DNA of 16,656 nt from assembly GCA_001871015.1 (NCBI GenBank), contig MNUO01000050.1, positions 1 to 16,656 on the forward strand, in the 5' to 3' direction. Of this stretch, positions 1-16,470 are shown in pieces. Position 1 is the first letter of the stretch. The number at the start of each line of letters is the position of its first letter. Under the pieces are notes generated by a model. It did not search any database, had not been told where the DNA came from, and saw nothing but the letters and a program-made list of their open reading frames with translations. The stretch is from Candidatus Desantisbacteria bacterium CG1_02_38_46 (GTDB lineage: Bacteria > Desantisbacteria > UBA1551 > UBA1559). The translations under genes and the position numbers were made by a program.

Positions 1-45
1 TACTGCAATTACTGAAATAACCGTTATTGCAAATGTATCTGGCAT
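1..45 (-). CDS. 5' end of an unidentified protein, cut by window edge
   Basis: An ATG at 45-43 follows a strong ribosome binding site (AGGAGG read on the minus strand, 55-50) and opens 15 codons, MPDTFAITVISVIAV, before the window ends. The hydrophobic run suggests a membrane segment near the N terminus. The start lies 8 bases past the stop of the upstream gene, so it is probably the next gene of the same operon. Product not recognised; too little is visible to assign a family. Confidence 0.55.
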   Translation of the reverse strand, partial: MPDTFAITVISVIAV

Positions 46-53
46 ATTTCCTC

Positions 54-659
54 CTAAAACTCATAAGCAAGCCCAACTCTATTGGTACTTTCTAAAACCT
101 CATTTTCGAAGTTTATTAGATTAGTGTAGTTAAGAATAAAAATCTTAAAAAAACGAACTCCGATTTTACTTTCTATCTTTGCTAAGGGAATGGCTGATAG
201 CGGAAAATTCAAGTCAATTATATTCTTAAAATCAACAATCTGCCACAAATCAAAAGTATAAATATTTTTGGCATTGATATTAAAGTAGGTCTTATCTTGC
301 AATAAAGCACCGACACCAACATCAATATTCCAACTATTGTTTATTGTAACACAATAACCGAGAATAATTAAACTTCTATTATATAGGGTTGCAAAGTCGT
401 ATGCTATTTCAAATTCTAAATAGAAAGGCCGATGTATCCAGAGGTCATTCCACACAGTTAATCTGTTTTTTGTATCAATATTGTTAATGTTAATACGAAA
501 CCATTCAATTGACCAATCCCACATTTCAGAGGTATAATTTGTTTTGGAATAAAATTGGCCAACACCATCGCAGCTAACCAACGAAACTTCCCCTCCTATT
601 TTAGCAAATAAAATTGCAGGTAATAAACAAATAAATAAACTCAAGATAAGCTTCTTCAT
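54..659 (-). CDS. Predicted secreted outer-membrane beta-barrel-like protein (201 aa)
   Basis: No family is recognised. Residues 1-19 form a clear signal peptide (MKKL, hydrophobic core, cleavage near LFA-KIG), so the protein is exported. The mature part is rich in aromatic and alternating hydrophobic/polar residues, as in short amphipathic beta strands, and it ends in ...VGLAYEF. A terminal Phe preceded by an alternating strand is typical of outer-membrane barrel proteins recognised by BamA. At about 180 mature residues it could form an 8-strand barrel. A ribosome binding site (AGGAA) precedes the ATG, and only 11 bases separate it from the stop of the broken mscS gene, so it belongs to the left operon. 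The outer-membrane location is inferred from composition and the C terminus, not from homology. Confidence 0.6.
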   Translation of the reverse strand: MKKLILSLFICLLPAILFAKIGGEVSLVSCDGVGQFYSKTNYTSEMWDWSIEWFRININNIDTKNRLTVWNDLWIHRPFYLEFEIAYDFATLYNRSLIILGYCVTINNSWNIDVGVGALLQDKTYFNINAKNIYTFDLWQIVDFKNIIDLNFPLSAIPLAKIESKIGVRFFKIFILNYTNLINFENEVLESTNRVGLAYEF

Positions 660-670
660 AATAGCTGTTC

Positions 671-1680
671 CTATTTTCGCATATGCAGGTCCATCTGCTG
701 GAAAGGTATCTCAACACTTTCTTCTTCAAATTTTCTTTTTATCTCCATATTCAATTCATCAGTAATGCGAAATTTCTCTTTGTAATCACTTACCCAGCAC
801 ACGAGCAGGATATTCAAAGAGGACTCTCCGAATTCCATAAAATAGGCATCAGGAGCAGGGTCATCAAGAACATCGGGATGAGCATGGCATATCTCTTTTA
901 GTATTCTTTTCACTTTTGTTATATCACTACCATAAGCAACACTGATAGTCTGACGAATTTTAACCTTTGGATTCGGGTAACCGTAATTGGTTATCCTTAC
1001 TTTTGCTATTTCTGAATTTGGTACAACAATCACAGTGTGGTCAAAGGAAAGAATCTTGGTTGACCTCAGTCTGCAAGTTCCACCCTATCACCAATCCTGA
1101 ATGGACGGTCAACCATTATTAAGAAGCCGGCTATCATATTTGCTATAGAATCCTGGGCTGCAAGAGCAAATGCAAGGGAAGCAATACCGGCAGTGGCAAT
1201 TAAACCGGAGATATTAACATTGAAATGGCTGAGAATTATCATTATACCTATAAACAGAATAATGAACTGGGTCAGGCGTTTTATCAGTGGGGCAAACCCG
1301 CCAACAGATACATCAGATTTTGAGGCTACCTCGAGGGTGTACCAGTCAAGTATGGCTTTTATAAGGGCATAGACAAACAGAGAGGCGACAATCACTACAG
1401 CTACATAAAAAATTCCATCCATAATTTTTAAAAATGAAAGTTTATCCATCTGCTGGTACTTCGCCAGACGCTTCAATACAAAATAGAATCCTGTGATAAG
1501 CACAAGAAAGCTTACAGGTTTCTCAGTGTATTCAAATATCATAATGTCTAATTTTGTGGGGGTCTTGTGAGCAATTCGCTTAAAAACATTGCGCCAGATA
1601 AACCCGACCAGAAAGCTACAAACTACAACACCTGCAAGATATATAACAGTCACAATCATTTCAAAAAGAATACCGCTCAT
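671..1680 (-). pseudogene. mscS: MscS-family mechanosensitive channel, disrupted by out-of-frame deletion
   Basis: Two adjacent open frames together make one small-conductance mechanosensitive channel. The first (1680-1066, 204 aa) has N-terminal membrane segments, then the pore helix region GIASLAFALAAQDSIANMI and the start of the beta domain, RPFRIGDRVELAD, followed by TGA. The second frame resumes with LRSTKILSFDHTVIVVPN and continues through the MscS beta and alpha/beta domains to the stop at 671. Between GDRVEL and LRST, MscS proteins normally have about a dozen residues (the G-x-x-G-x-V segment). These are missing here, so a deletion of roughly 30-35 nt with a frame change near 1065-1078 is likely. 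The only initiator for the second frame is an internal GTG at 1033, inside the beta domain and without domain logic, so it is not an independent gene. The start at 1680 overlaps the antiporter TGA by one base. An assembly error is possible. Confidence 0.85.
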
Positions 1681-2870
1681 CAGACCACCTCCTGTTTGCG
1701 TTCTATTTCCCCGGCTTTTTCCAGGGCAATCTTTGTACAGAGCGGTCCAAATAATTCAAAAATTACACTTGTGGTTACAATTGTGGTGATAATAATGCCC
1801 CCTACCTCGGGAAATACAGATTTTGCTACCAGAGCTGTACCCAGCGCCACACCAGCCTGCGGAAGAAGCGCAAGCCCCAGATATTTTTTAATAGCATATG
1901 GAGCGTTTGCAATCCTGCCACCTATTGAAGCACCCCATATCTTACCGAATGACCGGCAAACAATGTATACTGCCCCAACTGTCCCCAATTTTACTAAAAG
2001 TCCAACTTCGAGGCTGGCACCGGCAAGCACAAAGAAGAGCAGATAAAGCGGGGACTCAATTATCCTGATACTGTCAAAAAATTTCGAATTCCCGTGATTA
2101 ATATTGACAAGTATTCCACCCATAAACATATTTGTCAAAAGAATGGATAAGTGCAGGTAACTTGCAAGCCCCGCATTCAGAAGAATAAAACCGAGAGTAT
2201 ATGTGAGAAGTTCGGCAGTAGTACGTATGTAGCGGGAAAGCCGGACAAGAACCCATGCGGTTGCACCTCCGAGAATTAGAGCGCCAAAAATCTCGAGGAG
2301 AGATGAAAATAGAACCTTTGTAAGAAATAAGGGTGAGAGCAAGTGGGAGTATACTGCTCTTGAGATTGCAAGTGATATTGCAAAAATTATCAAACACCAT
2401 GCATCATCAATCGCAACAACGCCCAGCAAGGTATCAGTAAAAATTCCTTTTGTTCTGTATTCCCTGACCACCATTACGGTTGCTGCGGGGTCAGTTGCAG
2501 ATGCAATTGCTCCAAACAGCAATGAGAGATAAAACGGCTGCCTGAGGATAAGCCAGAAGGAAAGTGTGACCAGTACCCAGGGACCACATGCTCCCAGGAT
2601 TGAGGTCCATAACACCGACCTGCCTATTCTGCGAAAGGCCTCCCTGGAAAAACTCTGGCCCAGTGAGAATGCAATAAAACTCAGCGCCACATTGGAAATA
2701 AACCCGGATGTACTTATAACATTTTCTGAAATAAAATTCAAGATAGACGGTCCAATAAGGATTCCCAGAACAAGATAAGCCGTAACACCAGGGAATTTCA
2801 TCCTCCCTATCAATTTCGCAGCCAATAGCCCGGCGAGAAGGATGAAACCAAAACTTAAAATAGAGTTCAT
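1680..2870 (-). CDS. CPA-family Na+(K+)/H+ antiporter membrane protein (396 aa)
   Basis: An integral membrane protein with about 12 hydrophobic helices along its whole length, matching the Na+/H+ exchanger domain of the CPA superfamily. Diagnostic motifs are the unwound-helix motif SATDPAAT (residues 124-131) and AIDDAW (153-158). The Asp155-Asp156 pair corresponds to the ion-binding site; a DD pair is usual in electrogenic CPA2/NhaA-NapA-type antiporters, whereas ND is typical of electroneutral CPA1. There is no C-terminal TrkA or USP regulatory domain (length about 400), but the upstream CBS-pair gene overlaps it by 4 bases (ATGA), so the CBS protein may be a separate regulatory subunit. 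The cation cannot be told from sequence. Its TGA overlaps the mscS start by one base, placing antiporter and channel together, which would fit ion or turgor homeostasis. Confidence 0.85.
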   Translation of the reverse strand: MNSILSFGFILLAGLLAAKLIGRMKFPGVTAYLVLGILIGPSILNFISENVISTSGFISNVALSFIAFSLGQSFSREAFRRIGRSVLWTSILGACGPWVLVTLSFWLILRQPFYLSLLFGAIASATDPAATVMVVREYRTKGIFTDTLLGVVAIDDAWCLIIFAISLAISRAVYSHLLSPLFLTKVLFSSLLEIFGALILGGATAWVLVRLSRYIRTTAELLTYTLGFILLNAGLASYLHLSILLTNMFMGGILVNINHGNSKFFDSIRIIESPLYLLFFVLAGASLEVGLLVKLGTVGAVYIVCRSFGKIWGASIGGRIANAPYAIKKYLGLALLPQAGVALGTALVAKSVFPEVGGIIITTIVTTSVIFELFGPLCTKIALEKAGEIERKQEVV

Positions 2871-3352
2871 TTAATAATTCCCTTCTCTTTAAATATCGCT
2901 CTCAGGATGTCAAATATCCCCAACATCCCAACCAGTTTTCCCTCTTTATCAATCACTGGCAGAGTATCTACAGAATTGAGTTTCATTGCGGTATAAGCCT
3001 TCTCCAGGGGGAGGTCATCGTTAAGATAAAGAAATTTACGTTTCAGCAGGTCTTCAACTATAAAAAGAACGCCAGATTCTTCATCTATGTCCAGATTGAA
3101 AATGTCAATTTCATCCCTGTCAAGAAAGGGAACTCCTTTTATAAGACTCATTCCTTTTGCCTGGAATATTTCCACCAGGTCCTCAAATAAAATTGTGCCA
3201 ACCAACCTACCATCTTCTTCCACTACAGGCACAAGGGGGAATGTATGAAATTTTTGAAATTTTTTCAATAGTTCTGAAAGTGTGGTGCCACGACTCACAG
3301 TAAGAACTTCTCTGGTCATCACATCTCTGACCAGGGGAGAAACCTTGCTCAT
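2867..3352 (-). CDS. Tandem CBS-domain protein (161 aa)
   Basis: Two CBS motifs make up nearly the whole protein. The first is about residues 8-65 (VRDVMTREVLTVSRGTTLSELL ... FPLVPVVEEDGRLVGTI). The second is about 105-157 (LPLEKAYTAMKLNSVDTLPVIDKEGKLVGMLGIFDIL). A linker of some 40 residues separates them. Such Bateman modules bind adenine nucleotides and act as energy sensors, often on transporters. The start overlaps the stop of the cobalamin-protein gene by 4 bases, and the stop overlaps the antiporter start by 4 bases, implying tight translational coupling. Regulation of the antiporter is an inference from this coupling. No other domain is present. Confidence 0.85.
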   Translation of the reverse strand: MSKVSPLVRDVMTREVLTVSRGTTLSELLKKFQKFHTFPLVPVVEEDGRLVGTILFEDLVEIFQAKGMSLIKGVPFLDRDEIDIFNLDIDEESGVLFIVEDLLKRKFLYLNDDLPLEKAYTAMKLNSVDTLPVIDKEGKLVGMLGIFDILRAIFKEKGIIK

Positions 3353-4971
3353 TTTTTCTTCTCCTTCAGCAATTCAATTCTTTCCTTTTCTGAAATTACT
3401 TTGCCCGTGCTCCCATCAACTGCACAGCACTTCCCTTCAATCATTCGGGTAATTACCCTGCCTTTTGCATGAGGATTGTTTTTCAAGTGCGGGGCATCAA
3501 GCAAGCCCTGCTCTATTGCCTGTGTAAGAACCTCTGGATTACATAATGGTTCACTTTTACCTTTCCCGAGTGCATCTAACAGAACATTTGCTTCTATTAT
3601 CAATTCTTTTTTTCTTTTCTGAATCCTTTTATCATTCAGGAGGTCTGGAAAATCTTGAAGAGAAATGTGAATCATACCATGAATAATTTTACAACTTTCT
3701 ATTAGTTCTACGGGTGTCACAATATGATGTGCTTCACAATATCCTACCACATGCAGGATGTGTGGCTTCAGTGCAAGACTTAGCAAACCTGATGCAGCAA
3801 GTTGTCCTTTTGCAATATTGAGGTCAGGCAAGAAACTTGCAAGTCCTGCCCGAACCTGACGAAACGTAGTGAAATTTTCATCGTGTAAACTTTCAATTAA
3901 TTCAATCTTTGCGAGCATCTTGCCCAGGTCCATAACAGGAGATGTACCCGGTGGCGTATTAAACATATACTGGGATACATAGTAGCGCACACCAAGATTC
4001 TTGGCATTATAAGCGGCAAGAAATGCCATTGCAACTGCCAGGGAATCGTGTGCATCTCTGAGACTCCACTGATGGGATTCATTCACCTCAACAGGTATTT
4101 CCTGGCTCGCATACCAGCGAATTGCCTTCTGATTTTCCCTGATTGCCTCTTCAAGCGGTCTGGTTGAACGCCCATCAAGCAAGCTATACCAGCACAGCGG
4201 AACAGCTCCCCAGGCAATATTTATTGTTTCTTTGAGCATTTTTGCCCATTTGACCAAGTCCCGCGTGCCACTATAACAGCGCAAAAGCGGGTGGTTTGCG
4301 CATCGCGTTGCCTTATGTATTTGACGAAGGTCCCCGGGTTTCCTTAGTGGCACTCCTCCGGCACCGTCCTGCCCCGGCTTCATTTCATCCGGGCGAAAAA
4401 AACTTTCCTGTGCATTCTGGTCTGGACCCAAAGAAAGAACATCAAGGACTTGTGCCCGGGCAATTTTTCTGGCCCCCTTAACTGTTTCTTTAAGAGAAGG
4501 GAGTCCAAAATGATGGCGCAGTATTGGATAGGGATAACTTTTTTCTATCCGTGAAACAAGGTCCTGTGGAAATTTTTCTTCAGTCCTTTTGACAGATTCA
4601 CCTTTTAGATATGCCCTTATTTCATCAATGGATTGCGTCCCGTCAAACACGCATTCAAATAAGCCGCTCTTTTTTGCAATCTCTGCAACAGGAGCAGTTC
4701 CTCCGAATACAAATCTCACATCTGAAATATTGTTTTTCTCAAGTCTCTTTTTAACCTCTTCAAACAACCTCTCTGCAACTGACGGGTCAAGTCTATAACT
4801 TATTGCCACAAGGTCGGGTCTTTCTTTTTTTATGGCTTCAATAAGTCTTTCCGGCGATACTGCTGAACCAAGAAAGCTGGAACTGTATCCTTCGGCTTCA
4901 CATAATTTTAGAAAATTCAATAGTCCTGCAACATGAATACAGGTACCCAGCGAAACTCCTATTACTTTCAT
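3349..4971 (-). CDS. Cobalamin-binding domain fused to glutamate-mutase-E-like body (540 aa)
   Basis: Residues 1-122 look like a B12-binding Rossmann domain: an N-terminal strand, then the GTCIHVAG loop with His13 in the place of the cobalt-ligating His of the DxHxxG motif, an ISYRL segment near 57-61, and a GG at 90-91 as in the SxL/GG signature. The first Asp of DxHxxG is replaced by Cys11. Residues about 170-540 resemble the barrel-type catalytic chain of carbon-skeleton/amino mutases (glutamate mutase E), with conserved-looking stretches DQNAQESFFRPDEM, GAGGVPLR, CYSGTRDL and NESHQWSLRDAHD. This would be a fused S+E architecture. The substrate is unknown. The gene abuts the opine-dehydrogenase stop with no spacer (TAA-ATG) and overlaps the CBS gene, so enzyme and dehydrogenase are probably made together. 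The B12 assignment is moderately sure; the mutase reaction is inferred. Confidence 0.65.
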   Translation of the reverse strand: MKVIGVSLGTCIHVAGLLNFLKLCEAEGYSSSFLGSAVSPERLIEAIKKERPDLVAISYRLDPSVAERLFEEVKKRLEKNNISDVRFVFGGTAPVAEIAKKSGLFECVFDGTQSIDEIRAYLKGESVKRTEEKFPQDLVSRIEKSYPYPILRHHFGLPSLKETVKGARKIARAQVLDVLSLGPDQNAQESFFRPDEMKPGQDGAGGVPLRKPGDLRQIHKATRCANHPLLRCYSGTRDLVKWAKMLKETINIAWGAVPLCWYSLLDGRSTRPLEEAIRENQKAIRWYASQEIPVEVNESHQWSLRDAHDSLAVAMAFLAAYNAKNLGVRYYVSQYMFNTPPGTSPVMDLGKMLAKIELIESLHDENFTTFRQVRAGLASFLPDLNIAKGQLAASGLLSLALKPHILHVVGYCEAHHIVTPVELIESCKIIHGMIHISLQDFPDLLNDKRIQKRKKELIIEANVLLDALGKGKSEPLCNPEVLTQAIEQGLLDAPHLKNNPHAKGRVITRMIEGKCCAVDGSTGKVISEKERIELLKEKKK

Positions 4972-6126
4972 TTACTCTCCAATGGCAAACCTTCTCAGTT
5001 CTTTCACGCCCATTCCTTTAATGCCAAGTTTTTCTACATTTCTCCCATCTTTCCAGTAATCACAATTATGCATTGCGCAGGCAATATTAATCAAGGAACT
5101 AATTATGGGTGTAGGAACTCCGAGCATCTCTCCAACAGAAGCAATGGGAACCAGACTGAAGGGAATATCCTCTGTGATATAGCGGTTATTCAAAGAATTC
5201 GGTGCAGTAATTTTCTGATAAGCGGAATTGGTATGTATCATTTCGTAAAGACTATCCTTCTTGCCCCCATAAGAAAAGTAAAACCAGTCTTTTGCTGACA
5301 TTGCTCTCAATCCCAGTGCAGCTGCTACAGCAACTCTTTCTTCATCAATTTTCTCGAGAACCAAAGAAACACCAGGGGAACAACCATCCACATAAAATCT
5401 AAAACGAGGAACCTTTAACCTTGGCAATTGAAGACCGAGAAGAGAAAAACTGGAAGTATTTTCTATCCAGCCTGCGTTTAAAATAGTGATTGCCGGGTGG
5501 AATATTGAACCAATATTATTTAAACTTGTTTTAAACACATCATCGCCGGGGATAAACTGCGGGAATGCTTCTTTGAGCACCTCAATTACTTTAGGAATTA
5601 AATGGGAGTTAATTGAAGCAACAGGCACCTCTTTCTTAATTGCGAAAATTTTCACTTCACCTAATATGTTTGCCCGCGATGTATAAAGCAAAGTCTCTGC
5701 CTCAGCAACAATCACATCAGCCTGGCATTCTTTTTCTTTAAGAACCTGCTTGAATTCAATTGCTCCAAAAGTTCTCCCGGGATTAAGTACGATTACCTGA
5801 CCATTCTGCAGGTAGGGCGTGCAAATTTCAGCAATAAGCCGATGGGCTGTAGCCGGAGTAACTACCATTAAAACTTTAGCATCTTTAATTGCTTCTTTAA
5901 CATCAGTGGTAATCAACCCAACCCTGCCAAAACCTTCAATTTCCCCACTTACCTTTATTCCTTTTTGTATCAAAACAGAAAGAAGCCTTTTTTTACTGCG
6001 GTTATAAAGGTTGACTGGAAAACCCATTATTGCTAAATGCCCTGCCATCGCCAAACCACCATTCCCTGCACCGAGCACGCAGAATTTTGGTTTGGTCACA
6101 CTATCTTTATTTTCTCCTGTGGACAT
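4972..6126 (-). CDS. NAD/NADP octopine/nopaline (opine) dehydrogenase family protein (384 aa)
   Basis: The N-terminal Rossmann motif GAGNGGLAMAGHLA (from residue 19) binds NAD(P). The C-terminal octopine-dehydrogenase domain has the SIFHPAITILNAGWIE stretch with the catalytic-type His (residue 210) and a following DEERVAVAAALG helix. The family couples an amino acid to a 2-oxo acid by reductive amination, or runs the reverse oxidation; the substrate here is unknown. The longest frame starts at 6144, but that ATG sits immediately after a TATAAT box, upstream of the expected transcription start. The ATG at 6126 is preceded by GGAGG 4 bases upstream and is preferred. The stop abuts the cobalamin-protein start, making this the first gene of the left operon. 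A role in amino-acid or opine catabolism together with the B12 enzyme is an inference. Confidence 0.8.
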   Translation of the reverse strand: MSTGENKDSVTKPKFCVLGAGNGGLAMAGHLAIMGFPVNLYNRSKKRLLSVLIQKGIKVSGEIEGFGRVGLITTDVKEAIKDAKVLMVVTPATAHRLIAEICTPYLQNGQVIVLNPGRTFGAIEFKQVLKEKECQADVIVAEAETLLYTSRANILGEVKIFAIKKEVPVASINSHLIPKVIEVLKEAFPQFIPGDDVFKTSLNNIGSIFHPAITILNAGWIENTSSFSLLGLQLPRLKVPRFRFYVDGCSPGVSLVLEKIDEERVAVAAALGLRAMSAKDWFYFSYGGKKDSLYEMIHTNSAYQKITAPNSLNNRYITEDIPFSLVPIASVGEMLGVPTPIISSLINIACAMHNCDYWKDGRNVEKLGIKGMGVKELRRFAIGE

Positions 6127-6144
6127 CTTGCCTCCAGTAGTCAT

Positions 6145-6173
6145 ATTATATCACATTTTAAAAAATTATGCAA
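6145..6173 (-). promoter_or_regulatory. Proximal promoter (extended -10) of the left operon
   Basis: On the minus strand, TTGCAT (6173-6168), 17 bases, TATAAT (6150-6145), with TG one base before the -10 (TGATATAAT, extended -10). Transcription would start near 6138, giving a 12-nt leader that contains the GGAGG before the ATG at 6126. This is the main argument for that start. Confidence 0.6.
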
Positions 6174-6230
6174 GGATTTTTTACACTCTTTAATTTTCCT
6201 CCATTATTGTTTTATGCCTCCATTTCAATT

Positions 6231-6259
6231 ATTATAACACACTCCTGTATTTTTTTCAA
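6231..6259 (-). promoter_or_regulatory. Distal promoter of the left operon
   Basis: On the minus strand, TTGAAA (6259-6254), 17 bases, TATAAT (6236-6231), with an upstream TG. It would give a leader of about 100 nt that contains two further purine-rich GGAGG motifs followed only by very short frames. It lies about 30 bases from the plus-strand promoter of the HEPN gene, so the two face apart and may interfere. Confidence 0.5.
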
Positions 6260-6286
6260 GTTTTTGTTAGTTTTATTTTCTTTTCC

Positions 6287-6314
6287 TTGACAAATCCCTA
6301 AAATCGTATATAAT
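6287..6314 (+). promoter_or_regulatory. Consensus sigma70 promoter of the HEPN-MNT unit
   Basis: TTGACA (6287-6292), 16 bases, TATAAT (6309-6314): both hexamers are perfect. The transcript would start near 6321, inside GTGTCAGGTC (6316-6325), and reach the AAGGAG at 6341-6346 before the ATG at 6354. Confidence 0.8.
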
Positions 6315-6353
6315 TGTGTCAGGTCAAATAATTACCCAGAAAGGAGCATTGGT

Positions 6354-6755
6354 ATGAATAATAGGAAAAAAGAATTTAATCGATGGTTTGAACAGGCTCA
6401 GTTTGATTTAAAAGCTGCTAGGGATAGTTTAGAAGCAACCAATTTTGAATGGGCATGTTTTCAGGCTCAGCAAGCAGGAGAAAAAACTCTTAAAGGATAT
6501 TTGTCTTTACACGGGAAATCAGATTTAGAGACTCGTTCTATTTTTGCCCTTCTCAAGCGATGCAGTGAAATTAGTCCAGAGTTTAAGAATATTGAGCATA
6601 CTAAAGAACTTACCCAGTATTATATTCCTACCCGGTATATTAATGGACTTCCTGATGATATTCCTCATCATTTTTACGAAAAGGGGGATGCAGAGAAATG
6701 TATCAAACACGCAGAACAAATAATCAATTTAGTAAAAGAGATGAGCAGGACTTAA
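6354..6755 (+). CDS. HEPN-domain protein, partner of an MNT nucleotidyltransferase (133 aa)
   Basis: An all-alpha HEPN protein. It has the typical opening WFEQAQFDLKAARDSLEATNFEWACFQAQQAGEKTLKGYL (helices 1-2, residues 11-52) and the late motif YYIPTRYINGLPDD (about 89-102), seen in HEPN proteins paired with minimal nucleotidyltransferases. The usual His of the 'HSLxxLL' turn is replaced by Arg (ETRSIFALL). No R-x4-6-H RNase motif is present anywhere in the protein, so it is probably not a HepT-type RNase unless another site is used. The start is set by AAGGAG 7 bases upstream and a perfect promoter. The MNT gene begins within its last 58 bases. HEPN-MNT pairs often act as toxin-antitoxin or defence units in which the MNT protein AMPylates or otherwise modifies the HEPN partner; which role applies here is not shown. 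Confidence 0.8.
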   Translation: MNNRKKEFNRWFEQAQFDLKAARDSLEATNFEWACFQAQQAGEKTLKGYLSLHGKSDLETRSIFALLKRCSEISPEFKNIEHTKELTQYYIPTRYINGLPDDIPHHFYEKGDAEKCIKHAEQIINLVKEMSRT

Positions 6756-7054
6756 AAAATTTCCTTCCTCTTTTAGTTAAAAAATATAGACCAAAAAAAA
6801 TTATCCTTTTTGGTAGCCGGGCGCGGGGAGATGCCAATGAAAAAAGTGATGTTGATTTAGTAATTGTTGCTAATTTAAAGGTACGCTTTTTTAAACGCAT
6901 TGGGATGATTTTAGATTTATATAAAGGAAAACGTGATCTTGAACCCCTTGTTTATACAGAAGTAGAATTTGATAAGATGATTAAAGAAAAAAGGCCTTTT
7001 ATTGAAAAAGTATTAAAAGAGGGGATTATTCTTTATGAGAACAGATACTTGTAA
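6698..7054 (+). CDS. Minimal nucleotidyltransferase (MNT) domain protein (118 aa)
   Basis: A pol-beta-superfamily minimal nucleotidyltransferase. The core motif is FGSRARGDANEKSDVDLVIV (residues 38-57): Gly39-Ser40 and the metal-binding Asp51 and Asp53. A likely third acidic residue is Asp80, in RDLEPLVY. The active-site residues are therefore all present. It overlaps the HEPN gene by 58 bases in another frame. The ATG at 6698 is the only usable initiator before the core, with a G-rich run about 11 bases upstream; the first 15 or so residues lack family similarity, so the exact start is less sure. In characterised HEPN-MNT systems this protein modifies the HEPN protein with nucleotide. The propeller gene follows 42 bases downstream with its own ribosome binding site. 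Confidence 0.85.
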   Translation: MYQTRRTNNQFSKRDEQDLKNFLPLLVKKYRPKKIILFGSRARGDANEKSDVDLVIVANLKVRFFKRIGMILDLYKGKRDLEPLVYTEVEFDKMIKEKRPFIEKVLKEGIILYENRYL

Positions 7055-7096
7055 AGAGTTGGGGAATTTCTAAATTTCCCGAATGGGGGTGAAATT

Positions 7097-7984
7097 ATGA
7101 AAGAAGTGGAGAAAAGACATGTCTGGGGCAGGCAGCATAAAGTTGTGGAGGAATTTTATAATGTCTTTGCTTTAGATAAAAATCATGTCTGGGCAGTGAC
7201 AGGAAAAATGTCAATAGGTGGAGAGGGAAGCAGTATTTACTTCTTTGATGGCTCTTCCTGGAAAAAACAATATGAAGCAGATGTAGAACTTTATCATATC
7301 TCTAGTCTGGATGCAAGCCATGCCTGGGCAGTGGGCGGAAGAATAATTCTTGGAGGTGAAGGTAATATTTACTTCTTTGATGGCTCTTCCTGGAAAAAAC
7401 AATATAGAGTTGAGCAAGCTCTTTTTGCTATTGCTGCTTTAGACGCAAATCATGTCTGGAGCGTTGGCTTTGGCACCGTCTATTTCTTTGATGGTTCTTC
7501 GTGGAAGAAACAATTCGAGGCTGATGAACTATTCAATACTGTTGCAGTACTTGATAAGAATCGTGCCTGGGCAGCAGGTGGAAAAGTAATTCTCAGAAGT
7601 GAAGGTAGTATCTACTTCTTTAATGGAACTTTGTGGAAAAAACAATATAGATTAGGCGAAAAAGTTGATGAAAGCTTCAATAAACTGTACGTGTTAGACG
7701 AAAATCATATTTGGGCAGTGGGCAGTGGTGGCGGAATTTATTTCTTTGACGGTTCTTCCTGGGAAAAAGAATATAAATTGCGTGAAGGTATTTTAGGCGT
7801 AGCTGGTGCAGATAAAAATCATGTTTGGGCGGTAGGTTTTGGCGGCGTTTATTTCTTTGACGGTTCTTCCTGGAAAAAACAATACAATCCAGGTGAAGCT
7901 CTTTGTGATATTGCTGTTCTGGATGCAGAAAATGCCTGGGCTGTTGGCAGAGATGGCGGGATTTATTATTTAAGCAAGAAATAA
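7097..7984 (+). CDS. Seven-repeat beta-propeller protein (295 aa)
   Basis: Seven imperfect repeats of about 37-45 residues carry the pattern LDxNHVWAVG...GGxYFFDGSSWKKQY. The YFFDGSSW-type strand occurs near residues 48, 92, 128, 173, 215 and 252, and the VWAVG-type strand seven times. The last repeat lacks the WKKQY strand, whereas the N terminus begins with VWGRQHKV, which resembles it. This suggests a seven-bladed propeller closed by the N-terminal strand. No signal peptide, membrane segment or enzymatic motif is seen, so it is a likely cytoplasmic binding scaffold. The repeats are similar in sequence style to bacterial 'photosystem II stability factor/Kelch-like' propellers, but no specific family is claimed. 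The start follows GGGGGTGA at 7085-7092. Gene order suggests co-transcription with the HEPN-MNT pair; function unknown. Confidence 0.75.
   Translation: MKEVEKRHVWGRQHKVVEEFYNVFALDKNHVWAVTGKMSIGGEGSSIYFFDGSSWKKQYEADVELYHISSLDASHAWAVGGRIILGGEGNIYFFDGSSWKKQYRVEQALFAIAALDANHVWSVGFGTVYFFDGSSWKKQFEADELFNTVAVLDKNRAWAAGGKVILRSEGSIYFFNGTLWKKQYRLGEKVDESFNKLYVLDENHIWAVGSGGGIYFFDGSSWEKEYKLREGILGVAGADKNHVWAVGFGGVYFFDGSSWKKQYNPGEALCDIAVLDAENAWAVGRDGGIYYLSKK
7234..7405 (+). repeat. 40-nt perfect direct repeat encoding adjacent propeller blades
   Basis: The 40 bases at 7234-7273 recur exactly at 7366-7405. Both encode the core of IYFFDGSSWKKQY in neighbouring blades, with identical codons. Later blades are more diverged at the DNA level, but blades 5 and 6 again share synonymous choices (gacggttcttcctgg). 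This points to recent serial duplication or gene conversion. Confidence 0.85.
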
Positions 7985-7994
7985 TCCGATATCT

Positions 7995-8090
7995 ACTCGT
8001 AGCGCAACGCTTCTACCCACCGCTGTTTTCTTTGAAAACATACACGGGGGTTTCTGCTTTGTGGGTTTTTCACTCGTAGCGCAACGCTTC
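7995..8090. repeat. 19-nt direct repeat duplicating the 3' end of macB
   Basis: The 19 bases at 7995-8013 are repeated exactly at 8072-8090. On the minus strand the second copy is the macB 3' end, encoding EALRYE and the first base of its stop; the first copy would also read EALRYE then TAG. The copies are 77 bases apart, and the 58 bases between them are non-coding. It could be a scar of a lost second permease gene or a small insertion. Confidence 0.8.
8016..8070 (+). terminator. Possible terminator after the propeller gene
   Basis: CCCAC (8016-8020) can pair with GTGGG (8061-8065), which is followed by five T. An inner hairpin GTTTTC-TTT-GAAAAC lies between. The outer stem is short and the loop long, so this is weak. 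Its position between the convergent propeller and macB genes fits a terminator. Confidence 0.3.
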
Positions 8091-9284
8091 AATCGGGTCC
8101 ATGTCTGCTGCCTTTCGCGCTGGATAGTAGCCGAAAAATATGCCGATACCAATCGCAAAGCCAAACGCAAGGATTATCGAGCCGGCAGAAATTGAAACAG
8201 CCCATTTTGCTATTGCAGAAATGAGGAAAGATATGGTAATACCTGTCCCGATACCTATAACCCCGCCCATAAAGCTCAGCATCATTGCTTCTATTATGAA
8301 TTGCAGCAGAACTTCAAATCTTTTTGCGCCCACAGCCATCCTGATGCCGATTTCCCTTGTGCGCTCAGTAACAGATACAAGCATTATGTTCATTATGCCG
8401 ATACCGCCAACAAGGAGGGACACTGATGCGACGCTTCCTAAAAGCATTGTCATTGTACCTGCCATGGCAGTGGCTGCTGCCACTATGTCAGCCATATTCC
8501 TTACATGGAAGTCGTCGTCTTTCCCGGGCATTATGTGATGACGCTGCCTGAGCAGGTCTGTAACTTGTTTCTTGACTTCTGGTATTGCATCCTGGCTTAC
8601 AGCTGAAATCTGGATACTATTGATAAAAGTAACTCCCATAAGTCTTTTCATCGCCGTTGTATAGGGCATCAGTATGGTGTCATCCTGATCTCCGCCCCAT
8701 TCCGACCCTTTTGTTTCAAGCACACCGACAACTTTGAACGGTATACGGTTTATTCTGATAGTTTTACCTGCGGGGTCCTCGCTCCCAAATAGATTTTCAA
8801 CAACTGTTTTGCCAAGAAGACAGACCTTTGCTGCGCACTGGATTTCCTGCTCGGTAAAAGGCGCGCCGCTTTCAACCTGCCAGCTCCTTAGCTCTAAAAA
8901 ATCAAGGTTTGTGCCCTGAAGCCTGGCTGACCAATTCTGGGTTTTGTATATCACCTGACTTGTAGTACTTACCATTGGAGCAACAAGAATAGCAGATGTC
9001 ACTTCTTTTTTAATGGCTTGGAAATCCCCTTCCATAAGAGAAGGACTTGTTCCAATTCCACCTCTTACCCCGTGCTTTGTGACGCTGCCTGGAAATACCT
9101 GAAGTACATTATTGCCAAGACTTGACATCCGGTCCTGGATGTCTTTTTTAGCCCCTGCCCCTACGCTGAGCATTGCTATGACAGCACCCACTCCTATTAT
9201 CACGCCAAGCATTGTCAGGATTGAACGCATCTTGTTCTGAATCAGGACCTTAGCCGACATTTCAACAGTGTTTGTTAAATCCAT
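8070..9284 (-). CDS. macB: MacB-like ABC transporter permease (404 aa)
   Basis: MacB periplasmic core domain plus FtsX-type permease. The layout is: N-terminal helix 21-43 (SILTMLGVIIGVGAVIAML), a periplasmic domain to about 270, then three C-terminal membrane helices around 275-305, 325-355 and 368-387. The conserved cytosolic coupling stretch ERTREIGIRMAVGA is at 307-320, and the ending ARKAADMDPIEALRYE is typical of the family. The ATPase is a separate gene in the same operon, as in LolCDE/MacB-like split systems. The protein would carry mechanical force to the MacA-TolC conduit for export from the periplasm. The start lies 13 bases after the macA stop. The gene is intact although its adaptor gene is broken. 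Substrate unknown. Confidence 0.9.
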   Translation of the reverse strand: MDLTNTVEMSAKVLIQNKMRSILTMLGVIIGVGAVIAMLSVGAGAKKDIQDRMSSLGNNVLQVFPGSVTKHGVRGGIGTSPSLMEGDFQAIKKEVTSAILVAPMVSTTSQVIYKTQNWSARLQGTNLDFLELRSWQVESGAPFTEQEIQCAAKVCLLGKTVVENLFGSEDPAGKTIRINRIPFKVVGVLETKGSEWGGDQDDTILMPYTTAMKRLMGVTFINSIQISAVSQDAIPEVKKQVTDLLRQRHHIMPGKDDDFHVRNMADIVAAATAMAGTMTMLLGSVASVSLLVGGIGIMNIMLVSVTERTREIGIRMAVGAKRFEVLLQFIIEAMMLSFMGGVIGIGTGITISFLISAIAKWAVSISAGSIILAFGFAIGIGIFFGYYPARKAADMDPIEALRYE

Positions 9285-9297
9285 TTAGTTCCTTTTT

Positions 9298-10498
9298 TTA
9301 GTGCCGTATTCTGACACCGCCCATGCCTAAGGGTGTTGCCTGGCGGGCCGGAGTTGTACCAGATGAATTAAGCCCGACTACCACTTCGCTGCCTTCTGCA
9401 ATTTCTATAGATTCTGCTTCAGTCCACTGACCGTCGCTTATGCCTGTTTTGATTCTGACAGGTCGTAATTTATTGCCTTCAAGTATCCATATGGTACTAA
9501 AATTCTGCAGAATCCTCTTCTGGGCAAAACGCCTTGACGCCTCCTGCGTGTACGAATCAGGGCGGCGTCTTTGAGACTGCAGTTGTTGTAGCGCTGGCGC
9601 AGGTGGTTTGAAACGCAATGCTGCATTAGAAACCTTCAGGACATTGCTACTACGCTCTGTAATGATGTTTATGTTTGCAGTCATTCCGGGTTTAAGCAGC
9701 AGTTTGTCATTGCGAACCTTTATTATAACGATATAGGTCACAACCTTCTGCACTATTTGTGGCTCAAGGCGTACCTGGCGGACCTTGCCGCTGAAGTTCT
9801 CATCCGGAAAAGCATCTACAGTAAAAATCGCTTGCTGACCATTCTTTACTTTTCCTATGTCGCCTTCATCTATATTTGCCTCAATCTGCATTTCTGCAAG
9901 ACCCCTGGCGATGGTAAAAAGGGTGGGCGCGGAAAAACTTGCGGCAACAGTCTGCCCTGCATTTACATTCCTGGATATGACAATACCGTCAATTGGAGAA
10001 ACAATCGTTGTATTTTTAAGATCTGTCATAGCAAGGTCATAGGATGCCTGTGCCTGTTTCAGATTTATAAGGGCATTATCATATGCAGTTTGCGAGGAAT
10101 CTTTTTCACTCTGGGCAATAAGATTTTTGGAAAAAAGTTCTGTGTTGCGGTCCAGTGTGCGCTTTGTATCTGCCACTGCAATCTTTGCTTTCATCAGGTT
10201 TGCTTCTGCCTGGTCAAGTTTTGATTTGACCGAAGAAGGGTCTATCTGAGCAATGGCATCTCCCTTTTTTACAAACGAAAATATCCTGTATGATACCAGA
10301 AACCTGGCTGCCCACATCTACAGAGGTTACTGCATTAACTGTGCCGGCGGCTGAAATCATTGAAATTATATCCCCGCGTTCAACTTTTACAGTTTTGTAA
10401 TTTGGGGATTTTGCCTTTTTTGGAACAAAAAATATCCATACACAAACTGCAATAATAATTCCCGAAACAATCCACCATATTTTAATTTTTTTCTTCAT
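9298..10498 (-). pseudogene. macA: MacA/HlyD-type periplasmic adaptor, disrupted frame
   Basis: Two overlapping frames form one adaptor. Frame A (10498-10214) gives a membrane anchor (residues 8-25) and the first half of the lipoyl domain, ending VDVGSQVSGIIQDIF before it goes out of register. The other frame (read from about 10275 to 9298) resumes with FVKKGDAIAQIDPS, followed by a coiled-coil hairpin, the second lipoyl half (NTTIVSPIDGIVISRNVNAGQTV), the beta-barrel and membrane-proximal domains. The switch lies at 10262-10283, next to a run of six A on the minus strand. Related adaptors have about five more residues at this point, so a deletion of about 14 nt is one explanation. Alternatively one extra A arose in the run; removing it would restore a protein a few residues short. 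The start overlaps the TolC-gene stop by 4 bases. The 339-residue downstream frame begins at an ATG in the wrong register and is not a real start. Confidence 0.85.
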
Positions 10499-11718
10499 TT
10501 TACTATCCCTACCCCCATTGATTTTTTTATCTTCGCAACAGCTATTGCATAATCATAGATGGACTGAGTGAAATTCACCTGTGCGCTCTTCAATAAAACT
10601 CTGGCATCAGCCAACTCAATCATGGAACTTACTCCACTTATATATCTTCCCTCAGCAAGAAGGAGATTTTCCTGCGCCTGGATAAGCGATTTCTTCGCAA
10701 CCTCAATACTCTCCTGTAATTCTTTTATTGAAAGGTAAATCTGTTCAATTTCATAACCTACCGAAGATTCAATCTCCTCTTTTTTTATAATCTCCGAACT
10801 CAGGTTTTCTTTTGCACTCTTTATGTCAAGCCATTTGGAAAATCCATTGAAAACAGGAACAGAAAAGTTCAGACCTGCTCCCCACGACCAGGTATTTTGC
10901 AACGGGAATTCTTGTCCGCAATAAGCCAGATTTGTCCTTGCTGAAAGTGAGAGGTTGTAAAAGTTACGAGCAGAATCTAAATTAATCTGTGCTATTTTTA
11001 AATTAGACCCCTGTTGTTTAAGGTCTACTCTGAAACTGAATGCAGTTTTCATACATTGTTCAAGGCTTATGTCAAATGAACTTGTTTCAACTCTGTCCTC
11101 AACTTCGAAATATTCCTGGGGCTTCAAACCGATTGCGTTAATCAGTTCAAGTCTTGCAAGTTTAAGTGAGTTTTGTGCTTTGAGGTCTGCAAGTTGTGTA
11201 TTTGCAACGTCTACTTCTGCCCGTGTCACATCTATGCGCGGTTTTGTTCCGACTTCATAAAAACCCTTTGCTCGGAATAAATATTGCTGTGCCTTTTTAA
11301 GAGATTCTGAATTCAGTTCCTTAATATGCTTTGCTTTCAGGTACGAATAATAGGTCTGGGTTACATTATATATTATTTCCTGCTTCTTTGCTTCGAAAGA
11401 AGCAAGGGAAATGGCATTGCTTTCTTTTGCCTTAAGTGTTTCTCTGCGGGACCTTCCAAAATCATAGATATACTGTTCTAATGAAAGAAATGCTGAGTAA
11501 TTATTATCCGGGTCAGAACTGTTTGAACCTGCATAGGCTTTTTTCAGCGTCCAATCAGCTGATATCATGTTATGCTGTACAATCCTGAAGCCAGGCTTAT
11601 GTTCAAAAGCAAGTTTAATGCACTGTTCAAGCGATAATGTTTCTCCGCCAGCACAAACATTACCGTTAAAATAATATAAAAATGAAAAAATTATTAATAC
11701 GCTATATATTATCTTCAT
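10495..11718 (-). CDS. TolC-family outer-membrane efflux channel (407 aa)
   Basis: An outer-membrane efflux protein with a signal peptide (MKIIYSVLIIFSFLYYFNGNVCAGG) followed by the two internally repeated helical halves of the TolC fold. The LSLEQCIKLAFEHKP motif that opens half one recurs as ISLEQCMKTAFSFR near residue 220. YDFGRSRRETL and PVFNGFSKWLDIKSAKENL are the strand-to-helix turns. GVSSMIELADARVLL and the preceding EGRYISG are typical C-terminal motifs. It is somewhat shorter than E. coli TolC, mainly in the first barrel loop. The ATG at 11718 is chosen over the upstream ATG at 11757 because AGGGG lies 7 bases before it and the signal peptide then begins at residue 1. It overlaps the ABC-ATPase gene by 17 bases. 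It should form the exit duct of the pump. Confidence 0.9.
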   Translation of the reverse strand: MKIIYSVLIIFSFLYYFNGNVCAGGETLSLEQCIKLAFEHKPGFRIVQHNMISADWTLKKAYAGSNSSDPDNNYSAFLSLEQYIYDFGRSRRETLKAKESNAISLASFEAKKQEIIYNVTQTYYSYLKAKHIKELNSESLKKAQQYLFRAKGFYEVGTKPRIDVTRAEVDVANTQLADLKAQNSLKLARLELINAIGLKPQEYFEVEDRVETSSFDISLEQCMKTAFSFRVDLKQQGSNLKIAQINLDSARNFYNLSLSARTNLAYCGQEFPLQNTWSWGAGLNFSVPVFNGFSKWLDIKSAKENLSSEIIKKEEIESSVGYEIEQIYLSIKELQESIEVAKKSLIQAQENLLLAEGRYISGVSSMIELADARVLLKSAQVNFTQSIYDYAIAVAKIKKSMGVGIVK

Positions 11719-12421
11719 TATTACCCCTAACTTTAACTTCCTCTGTAATTTCGCCATCTTTTAGAATTACTATTCTTTCGGCATGCTCAGCAACTGCCCT
11801 GTCATGAGTGACTGTAACTATGGTATGCCCTTGTTCGTGGAGTTTTTTCAGGATTGCAATTATTTCCACTCCTGACTTGCTGTCTAAATTTCCCGTGGGC
11901 TCATCTGCAAGTATAATTGCCGGATTGTTTATAAGTGCTCTGGCAATGGCTACCCTTTGCTGCTGACCACCAGATAATTCAGCAGGGTGATGCTTTATCC
12001 GGTCACCGAGACCTACTCTTTCAAGTGCAGCAAGAGCCCTTTTCTGCCTTCCCTTTTTTTCCACATCACAGTATAAGAGGGGTAACTCTACATTTTCAAT
12101 TGCATTCATTCTTGGAAGAAGATTAAACATCTGGAATATAAACCCGATTTTTTTGTTTCTTATCTCTGCCAGTTCGTCTCTTTCCATTATGCTAACATCA
12201 GTCCCGTCAAGAAAAATTTTTCCTTCTGTTGGTCTATCAAGACAACCAATAATATGCATAAGCGTGGATTTTCCTGAACCGGATGCTCCCATTATGGAAA
12301 TAAATCCTCCCTTTTTTACAGAGATGGACACTCCATTGAGGGCGCGCACTTCAACATCTCCGAGTTTGTAAATTTTAATTAGATTATTTGTTCCAATAAT
12401 AAAATTTGTTTCTTTATTCAT
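11702..12421 (-). CDS. MacB/LolD-type ABC transporter ATPase (239 aa)
   Basis: A complete ABC ATPase: Walker A GASGSGKS (45-52), Q-loop FIFQMFNLLP (Gln97), signature LSGGQQQRVAIARAL (149-163), Walker B IILADEPTGNLD (169-180) and H-loop THD (His206). The sequence style (VEVRALNGVS, FNLLPRMNAIENVELPLLY) is that of the MacB/LolD/FtsE subgroup that works with FtsX-type permeases, in line with the macB permease gene downstream. It lies 9 bases after the Spy-like gene and overlaps the TolC gene. It supplies ATP-driven power to the tripartite pump on the cytoplasmic side of the inner membrane. Confidence 0.92.
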   Translation of the reverse strand: MNKETNFIIGTNNLIKIYKLGDVEVRALNGVSISVKKGGFISIMGASGSGKSTLMHIIGCLDRPTEGKIFLDGTDVSIMERDELAEIRNKKIGFIFQMFNLLPRMNAIENVELPLLYCDVEKKGRQKRALAALERVGLGDRIKHHPAELSGGQQQRVAIARALINNPAIILADEPTGNLDSKSGVEIIAILKKLHEQGHTIVTVTHDRAVAEHAERIVILKDGEITEEVKVRGNNEDNI

Positions 12422-12430
12422 CTGGTTAGA

Positions 12431-12943
12431 TTACCTGCCGAACTTCCTGGGTCCATGCATGCGTGGTCCTGTGAAGGTGTCCCCCCAGAAAAATTTTGAT
12501 TCAATTTTTTCAAAGGACTTATTCATTTTTTCTGCCTGCTCCGGGGTCAGCACATTTCTTATTCTTACAATATTGTCCAGAGACATGCCTTCAATCTGCA
12601 TCTGCAAAGAAGACATTTCCTTAAGGAGATTCTGCTTTTTCTTCTCGTCAATTTTCCCGCTTTTCGCCATTACAAACAACTCTTTTCTTTTTTCGTTCAG
12701 GTTTTTTCTCAAGGGGAAAATGTTTTTTTGCATTTCTTCCTGAAATTTAACGATTTTCTCACTCTGCTCTTTTGCCAAGCCAATCTTTCTGTGGAACGGG
12801 GATGTATGCATGCGACCCATAACCCCTGGACCTCTTCTCCAGAACCTTTTTGCCATTGCCCCGCGGTATAAAACTATTGATGCCACTCCAATATTAATCG
12901 CCAGAGAAACAACAAGCACTATTGCCACTATTTTTGATTTCAT
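12431..12943 (-). CDS. Spy/ZraP/CnrR-like periplasmic sensor or chaperone (170 aa)
   Basis: An N-terminal membrane anchor or uncleaved signal (residues 5-27, with no obvious signal-peptidase site) is followed by a helical periplasmic domain. That domain carries an LTxxQ-type motif, LTPEQAEKM (132-140), and a related first copy, GLAKEQSEKI (55-64), as in the Spy/CpxP/ZraP and CnrR 'heavy-metal resist' families. His46, His51 and His163 lie outside the coiled part and could be metal ligands; this is speculation. The ATG directly follows the anti-sigma stop (TAA-ATG), so the two are co-translated. In the Cnr system of cobalt/nickel resistance an analogous sensor controls an ECF sigma factor through its anti-sigma partner, and the same three-component logic is plausible here. 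Confidence 0.75.
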   Translation of the reverse strand: MKSKIVAIVLVVSLAINIGVASIVLYRGAMAKRFWRRGPGVMGRMHTSPFHRKIGLAKEQSEKIVKFQEEMQKNIFPLRKNLNEKRKELFVMAKSGKIDEKKKQNLLKEMSSLQMQIEGMSLDNIVRIRNVLTPEQAEKMNKSFEKIESKFFWGDTFTGPRMHGPRKFGR

Positions 12944-13411
12944 TTAAGCACCCCCTAATATTTCATTGTGGAAATCGCCAAGCGAACCATCAGGAATGTC
13001 TTCGAATACACCAAGATTGAATGATGATTTCGCTTCTTCTAAGGATAATTCAGAATTGGTCGCCTGGGTCCAGTAAGTTTCCCCCAGGAAAATGCCTGTC
13101 AGGGCTGAAAAAATTATTATAATTGAAAATAAGCTGATACCAAGAAAAGCAGGTTTCAGATTCAAAGGGAAAAAAACAGGGCTTTCTTTTTTGCCCTGTA
13201 TGATTTTTTCTCTCACTCCTGCAAAGAAATAAGGTGAAACTCTTAGAGTTTGGCTAACAGGCAAATTTTTCATTGTTTCACTCATAAACTCCATTTCTTT
13301 GCGGCATTTTGCACAGGCATTTATATGAACAAGCAAGTCCTCTGCTGCAACTCCCCTCATCTCACTATCTATATATAACGAAATCATTTTTTTCGCCTTC
13401 TGGCAGCGCAT
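12944..13411 (-). CDS. Zinc-finger (ZAS) membrane anti-sigma factor (155 aa)
   Basis: The N-terminal cytoplasmic anti-sigma zinc finger shows Cys3, then His29-x3-Cys33-x2-Cys36 (VHINACAKCRKEM). A single membrane helix follows at about residues 86-108 (FLGISLFSIIIIFSALTGIFLG), then a periplasmic tail of about 45 residues. This is the usual layout of a transmembrane anti-sigma factor that holds its ECF sigma factor inactive until an envelope signal. The ATG at 13411 follows a near-ideal AAGGAGG at spacing 6 and is preferred over the ATG at 13438, which would add nine residues. It lies 49 bases after the sigma gene and abuts the Spy-like gene. Confidence 0.85.
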   Translation of the reverse strand: MRCQKAKKMISLYIDSEMRGVAAEDLLVHINACAKCRKEMEFMSETMKNLPVSQTLRVSPYFFAGVREKIIQGKKESPVFFPLNLKPAFLGISLFSIIIIFSALTGIFLGETYWTQATNSELSLEEAKSSFNLGVFEDIPDGSLGDFHNEILGGA

Positions 13412-13460
13412 TATAACCTCCTTAATATAATTAGACAAAATATTTTATAGAAACTTGCGG

Positions 13461-14045
13461 TCAGAGTTCACCTTTTTCTCTGAATGGAAGGAGAAATTTC
13501 TTAAGATTTTGCTTGGCTCTGAACAGAAGGGATTCAATTGCAGGAATTGACAGGTTCATAATCTCTGATATCCTGGCATAGGAATGGTTCTCGTATTTCG
13601 AAAGTATAAAAGCTGTTTTTTGTGTGGGTGGAAGTGAGTCAACCGCATTTTTTATCAGTAAGGCTTGCCTGTTTTTTGCCATTGCAAAATCAGGTTGCAA
13701 ATCTATTGGCGCAGCGATGTCCTTTTTTATTTTGCCATCAGGCAGAAATATTCCTTTATCCAGAGACACTGTTTTCAACTTCTTCTTTCTCAGATGGTTT
13801 ATACTCAGATTGATTGCGATACGATACAGCCATGTGGACAATTTTGAATTACCCTTGAAGGACTTTGCCTGACTCCACACCTTTACAAAAACATCCTGTG
13901 CAATCTCTTCGGCTTCGGATGAGGAATTGATATGCCTGTAAATTAAATTCAGAACCTTGTTCTGATAGCGCAGAACCATTTCTTCAAACGCTATTTCGTC
14001 TCCTGTGGCAATTTTTTTTATAAGAATTTCATCGGTTTCCTGCAT
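13461..14045 (-). CDS. ECF-type RNA polymerase sigma factor (194 aa)
   Basis: A compact sigma factor with region 2 at about residues 20-90 (FEEMVLRYQNKVLNLIYRHI, then AEEIAQDVFVKVW and STWLYRIAINLSINHLRK) and region 4 at about 130-185 (LPPTQKTAFILSKYENHSYARISEIMNLS, then AIESLLFRAKQNLKK). Regions 1.1, 3 and a group-1 extension are absent, as in ECF sigma factors. It heads a seven-gene operon with its anti-sigma factor and an efflux pump, so it probably activates its own operon. No good ECF-type promoter is visible upstream, and the ATG lacks a clear Shine-Dalgarno sequence. Confidence 0.92.
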   Translation of the reverse strand: MQETDEILIKKIATGDEIAFEEMVLRYQNKVLNLIYRHINSSSEAEEIAQDVFVKVWSQAKSFKGNSKLSTWLYRIAINLSINHLRKKKLKTVSLDKGIFLPDGKIKKDIAAPIDLQPDFAMAKNRQALLIKNAVDSLPPTQKTAFILSKYENHSYARISEIMNLSIPAIESLLFRAKQNLKKFLLPFREKGEL

Positions 14046-14075
14046 AGATTAAATTTGGGACAGCACCCGTTTTTA

Positions 14076-14105
14076 TTTATATTGAATTAAGTATTGCGTC
14101 TCCAA
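14076..14105 (-). promoter_or_regulatory. Weak promoter candidate upstream of the ECF sigma gene
   Basis: On the minus strand, TTGGAG (14105-14100), 18 bases, TATAAA (14081-14076). The -35 is poor. No hairpin with a T-run separates this gene from the RelE toxin gene (stop at 14117), so read-through from the toxin-antitoxin promoter is equally possible. GGGTGCTGTCCC (14068-14057) occupies the place where a ribosome binding site would be expected. Confidence 0.3.
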
Positions 14106-14116
14106 AATTTATTCTT

Positions 14117-15248: not shown

Positions 15249-15258
15249 GGTAACCCTC

Positions 15259-15332
15259 CATCGTATATAACTTCCTCTTTATATTCTTGTATTATTATAT
15301 ATCATGAAAGAAAAAATGTCAAGTATACGATG
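15259..15332. promoter_or_regulatory. Inverted-repeat operator flanking the antitoxin promoter
   Basis: CATCGTATA at 15259-15267 and its exact reverse complement TATACGATG at 15324-15332 bracket the promoter. One arm touches the upstream edge of the -35 box; the other lies in the leader next to the ribosome binding site. Nine exact bases in inverted orientation around a single promoter suit binding of the XRE domain and looping or double-site repression. Binding itself is inferred. Confidence 0.6.
15294..15322 (-). promoter_or_regulatory. Consensus sigma70 promoter of the toxin-antitoxin operon
   Basis: On the minus strand, TTGACA (15322-15317), 17 bases, TATAAT (15299-15294): perfect hexamers and optimal spacing. 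Transcription should begin near 15287, about 40 bases before the ATG at 15248. Confidence 0.85.
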
Positions 15333-15358
15333 ATTTTTCTATCAAATTATTATAAATT

Positions 15359-15427: not shown

Positions 15428-15462
15428 TCCATCCTCCCCTCAAATCTGTGTAACCAAATGTA

Positions 15463-16218: not shown

Positions 16219-16254
16219 ATTTAATTCCTCTGCCGTCCTCTTCTGGAATCCAAT

Positions 16255-16452: not shown

Positions 16453-16470
16453 TCAAAGAATTTTTGTTCA

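Follow-up and report, generated by a model that had tools for sequence, protein, structure and literature searches.

Described relatives and the gene pair

The closest described relatives of the system reported here are glutamate mutase, in which a corrinoid-binding Rossmann domain (GlmS) and a triosephosphate isomerase (TIM) barrel (GlmE) reside on two chains (structures 1cb7 and 6h9e), and two opine-type dehydrogenases of solved structure, N-(1-D-carboxylethyl)-L-norvaline dehydrogenase (CENDH; 1bg6) and octopine dehydrogenase (3c7a). In Candidatus Desantisbacteria bacterium CG1_02_38_46, a stretch of 16,656 nucleotides (GCA_001871015.1, MNUO01000050.1, positions 1-16,656, forward strand; hereafter the window) carries homologs of both on its minus strand, as two intact open reading frames (ORFs) that abut as TAA-ATG with zero gap: an opine dehydrogenase (ODH) and a one-chain cobalamin-dependent mutase-like protein (MUT). 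The pair recurs across bacterial and archaeal phyla, often near an ATP-dependent ligase gene, and we read it, with a probability of roughly 0.5, as the conserved core of an operon that makes a compatible solute (osmolyte). Its features in the window are:

4972-6144, minus strand: ODH, opine (octopine/CENDH-type) dehydrogenase, 390 amino acids (Pfam and solved-structure matches)
3349-4971, minus strand: MUT, one-chain cobalamin-dependent mutase-like protein, 540 amino acids (Pfam, structure model, fold comparison)
4597-4971, minus strand: B12-binding Rossmann domain, MUT residues 1-125 (Pfam B12-binding, E 1.7e-12; corrinoid domains, Z 16)
4924-4941, minus strand: CxHxxG motif, MUT residues 11-16, a variant of the DxHxxG base-off/His-on motif (His13 and Gly16 invariant)
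3367-4575, minus strand: glutamate-mutase-E-like TIM barrel, MUT residues 133-535 (Z 32 to 1cb7_B and 6h9e_B)

The initial annotation of this DNA had placed the pair at 3349-6126 with the same TAA-ATG junction, but position 6126 is a second in-frame ATG of ODH; the reading frame starts at 6144.

A one-chain mutase-like protein

A fusion of a B12-binding domain with a glutamate-mutase-E-like barrel had been proposed for MUT, and the structure model (AlphaFold2, from a 52-sequence alignment; mean predicted local distance difference test score, pLDDT, 92.7) bears it out. In fold comparisons by VIA-align, MUT residues 133-535 matched glutamate mutase E with Z 32.1 (6h9e_B) and 31.9 (1cb7_B) over 375-376 residues, at 3.2 Å and 16% identity; lysine 5,6-aminomutase alpha (Z 28-30), ornithine aminomutase (27) and methylmalonyl-CoA mutase (about 22) followed, and residues 1-125 matched corrinoid-binding domains at Z 16. 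The single 540-residue chain thus places a GlmS-like domain before a GlmE-like barrel, an arrangement shared by its relatives. The Pfam scan of MUT recovered the B12-binding domain only (residues 1-114, E 1.7e-12), the window protein had no match to Met_asp_mut_E up to E 1, and 14 of 52 family members matched that profile weakly (best 4.7e-6). No match to PF06368 was found in the window's genome, and when the profiles of MUT and true GlmE were aligned with hhalign, the score was not significant.

Several residues set MUT apart from its described relatives. Where glutamate mutase has DxHxxG, the MUT family has CxHxxG, with His and Gly invariant and Cys replacing Asp in 78 of 80 members. The pyridoxal phosphate (PLP) lysine of lysine 5,6-aminomutase, which we take to lie 11 residues past the B12-binding histidine and hence to correspond to MUT residue 24, is replaced by Ala (69/82) or Cys (11/82); this makes MUT more likely a carbon-skeleton mutase than a PLP aminomutase, and the amino-group rearrangement suggested as one option in the initial annotation is accordingly less likely. 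The invariant residues H154, Q188 and Y233 align with R66, R100 and R149 of GlmE, presumably the arginine claw that binds glutamate in glutamate mutase. As a caveat, this residue mapping is weak because the underlying hhalign score is not significant (E 0.065; the alignment was checked by eye against predicted strands), and the likeness of the barrel to GlmE rests on the fold comparison; with this qualification, and at 16% identity, it is unlikely that MUT binds glutamate in the manner of glutamate mutase, the claw arginines of which are probably absent from MUT.

The lysine 5,6- and ornithine 4,5-aminomutases share the barrel fold (Z 26-30) but differ in the PLP-lysine position and in domain order, the B12 domain coming first in MUT; the fused isobutyryl-CoA mutase IcmF likewise combines an N-terminal B12 domain and a mutase barrel in one chain, yet MUT lacks its G-protein domain and resembles the CoA-mutase barrel less closely. 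Glutamate mutase genes are accompanied by glmL and methylaspartate ammonia-lyase (compare locus L100), whereas MUT is accompanied by ODH and a ligase. The window's genome contains a piece of a CobA-type adenosyltransferase and no adenosyltransferase of the PduO type. Few adenosylcobalamin-dependent carbon-skeleton mutases are known, and to our knowledge none acts on an opine or serves osmoprotection.

The opine dehydrogenase

The assignment of the partner protein to the octopine dehydrogenase family, as initially annotated, was confirmed by Pfam (Octopine_DH, PF02317, E 9e-47), with the NAD-binding and Octopine_DH domains both present, and by the closest solved structure, CENDH (1bg6, E 2.5e-67, residues 19-384), followed by octopine dehydrogenase (3c7a, 5e-10). 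ODH residues H216, R321 and D326 align with CENDH H202, R292 and D297, which we take to be catalytic, and are kept in 64/64, 64/64 and 63/64 ODH homologs; given this conservation, ODH is expected to be an active opine-type dehydrogenase. ODH is homologous to both described enzymes over its full length; it differs from them in always occurring in an operon with a B12 mutase. Opine dehydrogenases also make the metal chelators staphylopine and pseudopaline, but a metallophore is the least likely of the products considered here, a remote prospect: ODH is of the PF02317/CENDH type, no nicotianamine-synthase-like gene, receptor or exporter recurs near the pair, and the regulation found responds to ions or cyclic di-AMP (c-di-AMP).

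Distribution of the pair

A scan of species-representative genomes for MUT yielded at least 80 loci, the best 80 of which (50-76% identity) were combined with L002-L004 into a set of 83; L002 and L018 represent the same genome, the closest relative of the window. Among the loci listed, the bacterial carriers belong to Bacteroidota, Ignavibacteriota, Acidobacteriota, Aminicenantes, Hydrogenedentota, Spirochaetota, Bacillota, Atribacteria, Gemmatimonadota, Actinomycetota and Desantisbacteria, and the archaeal carriers to several lineages including Thorarchaeota and Thermoplasmata. ODH lies within 400 bp of MUT on the same strand in 77 of the 83 loci; of the six exceptions, four end at a contig edge, L063 has a ligase gene between the two, and only L075 lacks ODH. 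The tight coupling inferred from the window alone therefore holds well beyond it, and the neighborhood survey finds the pair across phyla rather than in a single genome. The MUT gene is present in 4 of 59 genomes sampled from different families, among them the window's own and its order-mate, and it was not found on plasmids. In the archaeal loci L075 (2305-3165) and L088 (754-1605), a gene for the mechanosensitive channel MscS immediately precedes MUT; the order of the pair is reversed in L088, where ODH comes after MUT.

A ligase as third member

Clustering of neighboring genes revealed one further widespread gene, related to asparagine synthetase (PF00733). By tblastn near the pair (83 loci including the window, with the duplicate L002 left out), this AsnB-like ligase occurs in 49 loci and a Ddl-like ATP-grasp ligase in 11 others; no locus has both, against 6.5 expected (P 2e-5, without correction for relatedness). 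The AsnB-like proteins share with asparagine synthetase B and beta-lactam synthetase the Asn_synthase domain, and the pyrophosphate (PPi) loop and K..F..G motif are present in all 44 long members; they differ in their N-terminal domain, which in 33 of these 44 is short and has lost the glutaminase cysteine. The 11 proteins that keep this cysteine form a group that sits between cysteine-less groups in the tree. Since the same place in the operon is taken by forms with and without the glutaminase cysteine, ammonia would be the simplest nucleophile for both, and the product would be a primary amide (carboxamide).

Loss of the glutaminase cysteine, also seen in beta-lactam synthetases, allows another scheme: ODH would form an N-carboxyalkyl amino acid, a shift by MUT would give a beta-type isomer, and ring closure would fall to the AsnB-like enzyme, by analogy with the action of beta-lactam synthetase on N2-(2-carboxyethyl)arginine. 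This logic suits an opine substrate, and both ligase types would be suited to forming a lactam or an amide; the product might again be an osmolyte, or else a signal or an antibiotic. Ring closure nevertheless appears improbable, as the ligase matches AsnB (1ct9, E 1.8e-60) far better than it does beta-lactam synthetase (1.9e-17) or CarA (9e-16), the cysteine persists in a quarter of the long members, and the AsnB-type LES-F-D motif is kept in most.

The recurrent ligase also bears on the direction of the pathway. The initial annotation had envisaged a two-step route combining rearrangement with reductive or oxidative deamination; the route is not limited to two steps, and an ending in deamination is unlikely because an ATP-dependent third member points to biosynthesis. 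A catabolic role, in which MUT would rearrange an amino acid or opine and ODH would split it oxidatively for carbon, nitrogen or energy, would parallel glutamate mutase in glutamate fermentation; fermentation is the usual role of mutases of this fold, anaerobes are common among the carriers, and opine dehydrogenases are reversible. Besides the ligase, however, the riboswitches of relatives (below) argue against it, and no ammonia-lyase, transporter or CoA-pathway genes recur near the pair; we therefore consider catabolism unlikely, though first among the alternatives.

Riboswitches and neighboring genes

In four relatives, the c-di-AMP riboswitch model RF00379 (gathering threshold 38 bits) matches just upstream of the first operon gene: L067 (97.6 bits), L093 (77.9), L004 (107.4) and L076 (97.8). 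In the closest relative of the window (L018/L002), one nhaA-I RNA precedes ODH and a second precedes an AsnB-like gene that lies about 2 kb past MUT in a transcription unit of its own:

L018, 4766-4848 and 9459-9545: nhaA-I RNAs with intrinsic terminators

Because an nhaA-I RNA precedes both units, it ties this separate ligase gene to ODH-MUT. Each leader runs into a strong hairpin and then a U run. RNAs of the nhaA-I class sense Li+, whereas a rare terminator-bearing variant that was tested senses Na+, and such variants have been published only from Deltaproteobacteria (PMC9646797); given their terminators, the L018 RNAs may be Na+-II switches in another phylum. In all, c-di-AMP or nhaA-I RNAs were found in five related genomes.

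The genes for the osmolyte N-epsilon-acetyl-beta-lysine offer a parallel, although their aminomutase is a radical S-adenosylmethionine (SAM) enzyme that does not use B12, and neither an opine dehydrogenase nor an amide ligase is involved. There, too, an aminomutase-type rearrangement of an amino acid leads to an osmolyte precursor, and the same kinds of RNA switch, Na+ and c-di-AMP riboswitches in tandem, jointly control an osmolyte gene (PMC9337991).

Control by c-di-AMP has a second possible meaning, as these riboswitches also govern wall-remodeling enzymes (PMC3766115); the pair could contribute to wall or surface polymers by supplying a modified amino acid, which the Ddl-like enzyme would ligate. 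A cell-envelope precursor is nonetheless very unlikely, since the pair occurs in archaea without peptidoglycan (Thorarchaeota, Thermoplasmata) and wall genes are not recurrent nearby.

Two sets of 144 genes were compared, one from the first two positions beside the operon and the other from further away. In the nearer set, the commonest Pfam families were MarC and MscS (six each), followed by amino-acid permease, CBS and others (four each); none of these families ranks among the commonest in the distant set. MscS, MarC, antiporter and trehalose genes recur near the pair; four loci have a fused trehalose-6-phosphate synthase/phosphatase gene, and L020 has a P-type cation ATPase. Downstream of MUT, the window itself contains:

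2867-3352, minus strand: two-CBS-domain protein, 4-base overlap with MUT (Pfam CBS, E 2.1e-26)
1680-2870, minus strand: Na_H_Exchanger-family antiporter, 4-base overlap with the CBS gene (Pfam, E 1e-29)
671-1680, minus strand: MscS mechanosensitive channel gene, broken into ORFs 1066-1680 and 671-1033 (ORF list, Pfam)

The antiporter gene touches the broken MscS gene, and the order MUT then CBS is common to the window and its relative L018/L002; the whole series reads as a single transcription unit that apparently joins opine dehydrogenase and B12 protein to ion and turgor proteins. In the MscS gene of the window, about 30 bases of the beta-domain are gone and the frame shifts near 1033-1066.

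A proposed osmolyte pathway

In the proposed pathway, ODH would use NAD(P)H to couple a 2-oxo acid reductively to an amino acid at its amino group, yielding an N-(carboxyalkyl) amino acid. MUT would hold adenosylcobalamin in its own Rossmann domain and rearrange a carbon skeleton, either that of the opine or that of the amino acid before N-alkylation. The ATP-dependent ligase, AsnB-like in most lineages and Ddl-like in others, would convert one carboxylate to an amide, and the amidated product would be a net-neutral zwitterion suited to accumulation. Expression would track the ionic or osmotic state, through c-di-AMP or Na+/Li+ riboswitches in some relatives and, in the window, through the operon shared with the CBS protein, antiporter and MscS channel. 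A neutral zwitterionic solute is the best reading of reductive N-alkylation, skeletal rearrangement and ATP-driven amidation under what looks like osmotic control in several lineages; given the RNA switches of relatives and the salt- and pressure-channel neighbors, the product is probably a small salt-stress protectant. The families, folds, operon conservation, mutually exclusive ligases and riboswitches of relatives are computed, and the substrates, step order, amidation by ammonia and osmolyte role are what we infer. Catabolism, lactam formation, a wall precursor and a metallophore all rank lower than osmolyte synthesis.

Several observations weigh against this reading. Ddl-like ligases normally use an amine, not ammonia, so that the two ligases may differ in reaction, and the Ddl-like form fits a primary amide less well. 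Neither ligase was found near the pair in 23 of 83 loci, partly because contigs end, and no ligase partner was found in the window's 88%-complete genome, where completion of the pathway may depend on a gene in the missing portion or on an unrecognized gene, or the pathway may be incomplete. Two candidates in that genome were rejected as partners: the only AsnB is an ordinary one of 626-630 amino acids, and the Ddl sits in a mur/fts setting. No riboswitch was found near the pair in the other 54 scanned sources, window included, nor when the leader of ODH in the window was scanned permissively, and the window's own genome has no nhaA-I RNA. Neighbor counts are small and the loci related, so that the osmotic link is supported, not proven.

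A mutase, an ATP-grasp ligase and a dehydrogenase also make up the logic of the pyrrolysine pathway (PylB-PylC-PylD), which differs in its unrelated radical SAM mutase and in its product. Among the open-license papers searched, none links opine dehydrogenase to cobalamin, to B12-binding, to glutamate mutase or to a c-di-AMP riboswitch. Each part comes from a known superfamily; novelty appears to lie in the fusion of the mutase, in the cassette and in its riboswitch control. More tentatively, and at somewhat less than even odds, the cassette of ODH, fused B12 mutase and amide ligase would define a new class of compatible solute in many bacterial and archaeal phyla, an amidated, B12-rearranged opine switched by Na+/Li+ or c-di-AMP, with MUT as a new one-chain adenosylcobalamin-dependent carbon-skeleton mutase acting on a new substrate.

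Other features of the window

Divergent from ODH, a HEPN gene and an overlapping nucleotidyltransferase (MNT) gene form a HEPN-MNT type pair (6354-7054, plus strand). A 295-amino-acid protein (7097-7984, plus strand) consists of repeated 'YFFDGSSWKKQY ... ALDANHVWAVG' units, is beta-propeller-like and matches no Pfam family. An HlyD/MacA-type efflux adaptor gene (9298-10498, minus strand) is split by a frameshift into ORFs 10214-10498 and 9298-10317, by sequencing error or as a pseudogene.

Implications

If the proposed pathway is correct, a solute of many uncultivated bacteria and archaea could be found, with the time of its synthesis and its rough shape predicted from the cassette, the RNA switches and the chemistry of the ligase; c-di-AMP and Na+ sensing would also be tied to vitamin B12 chemistry.

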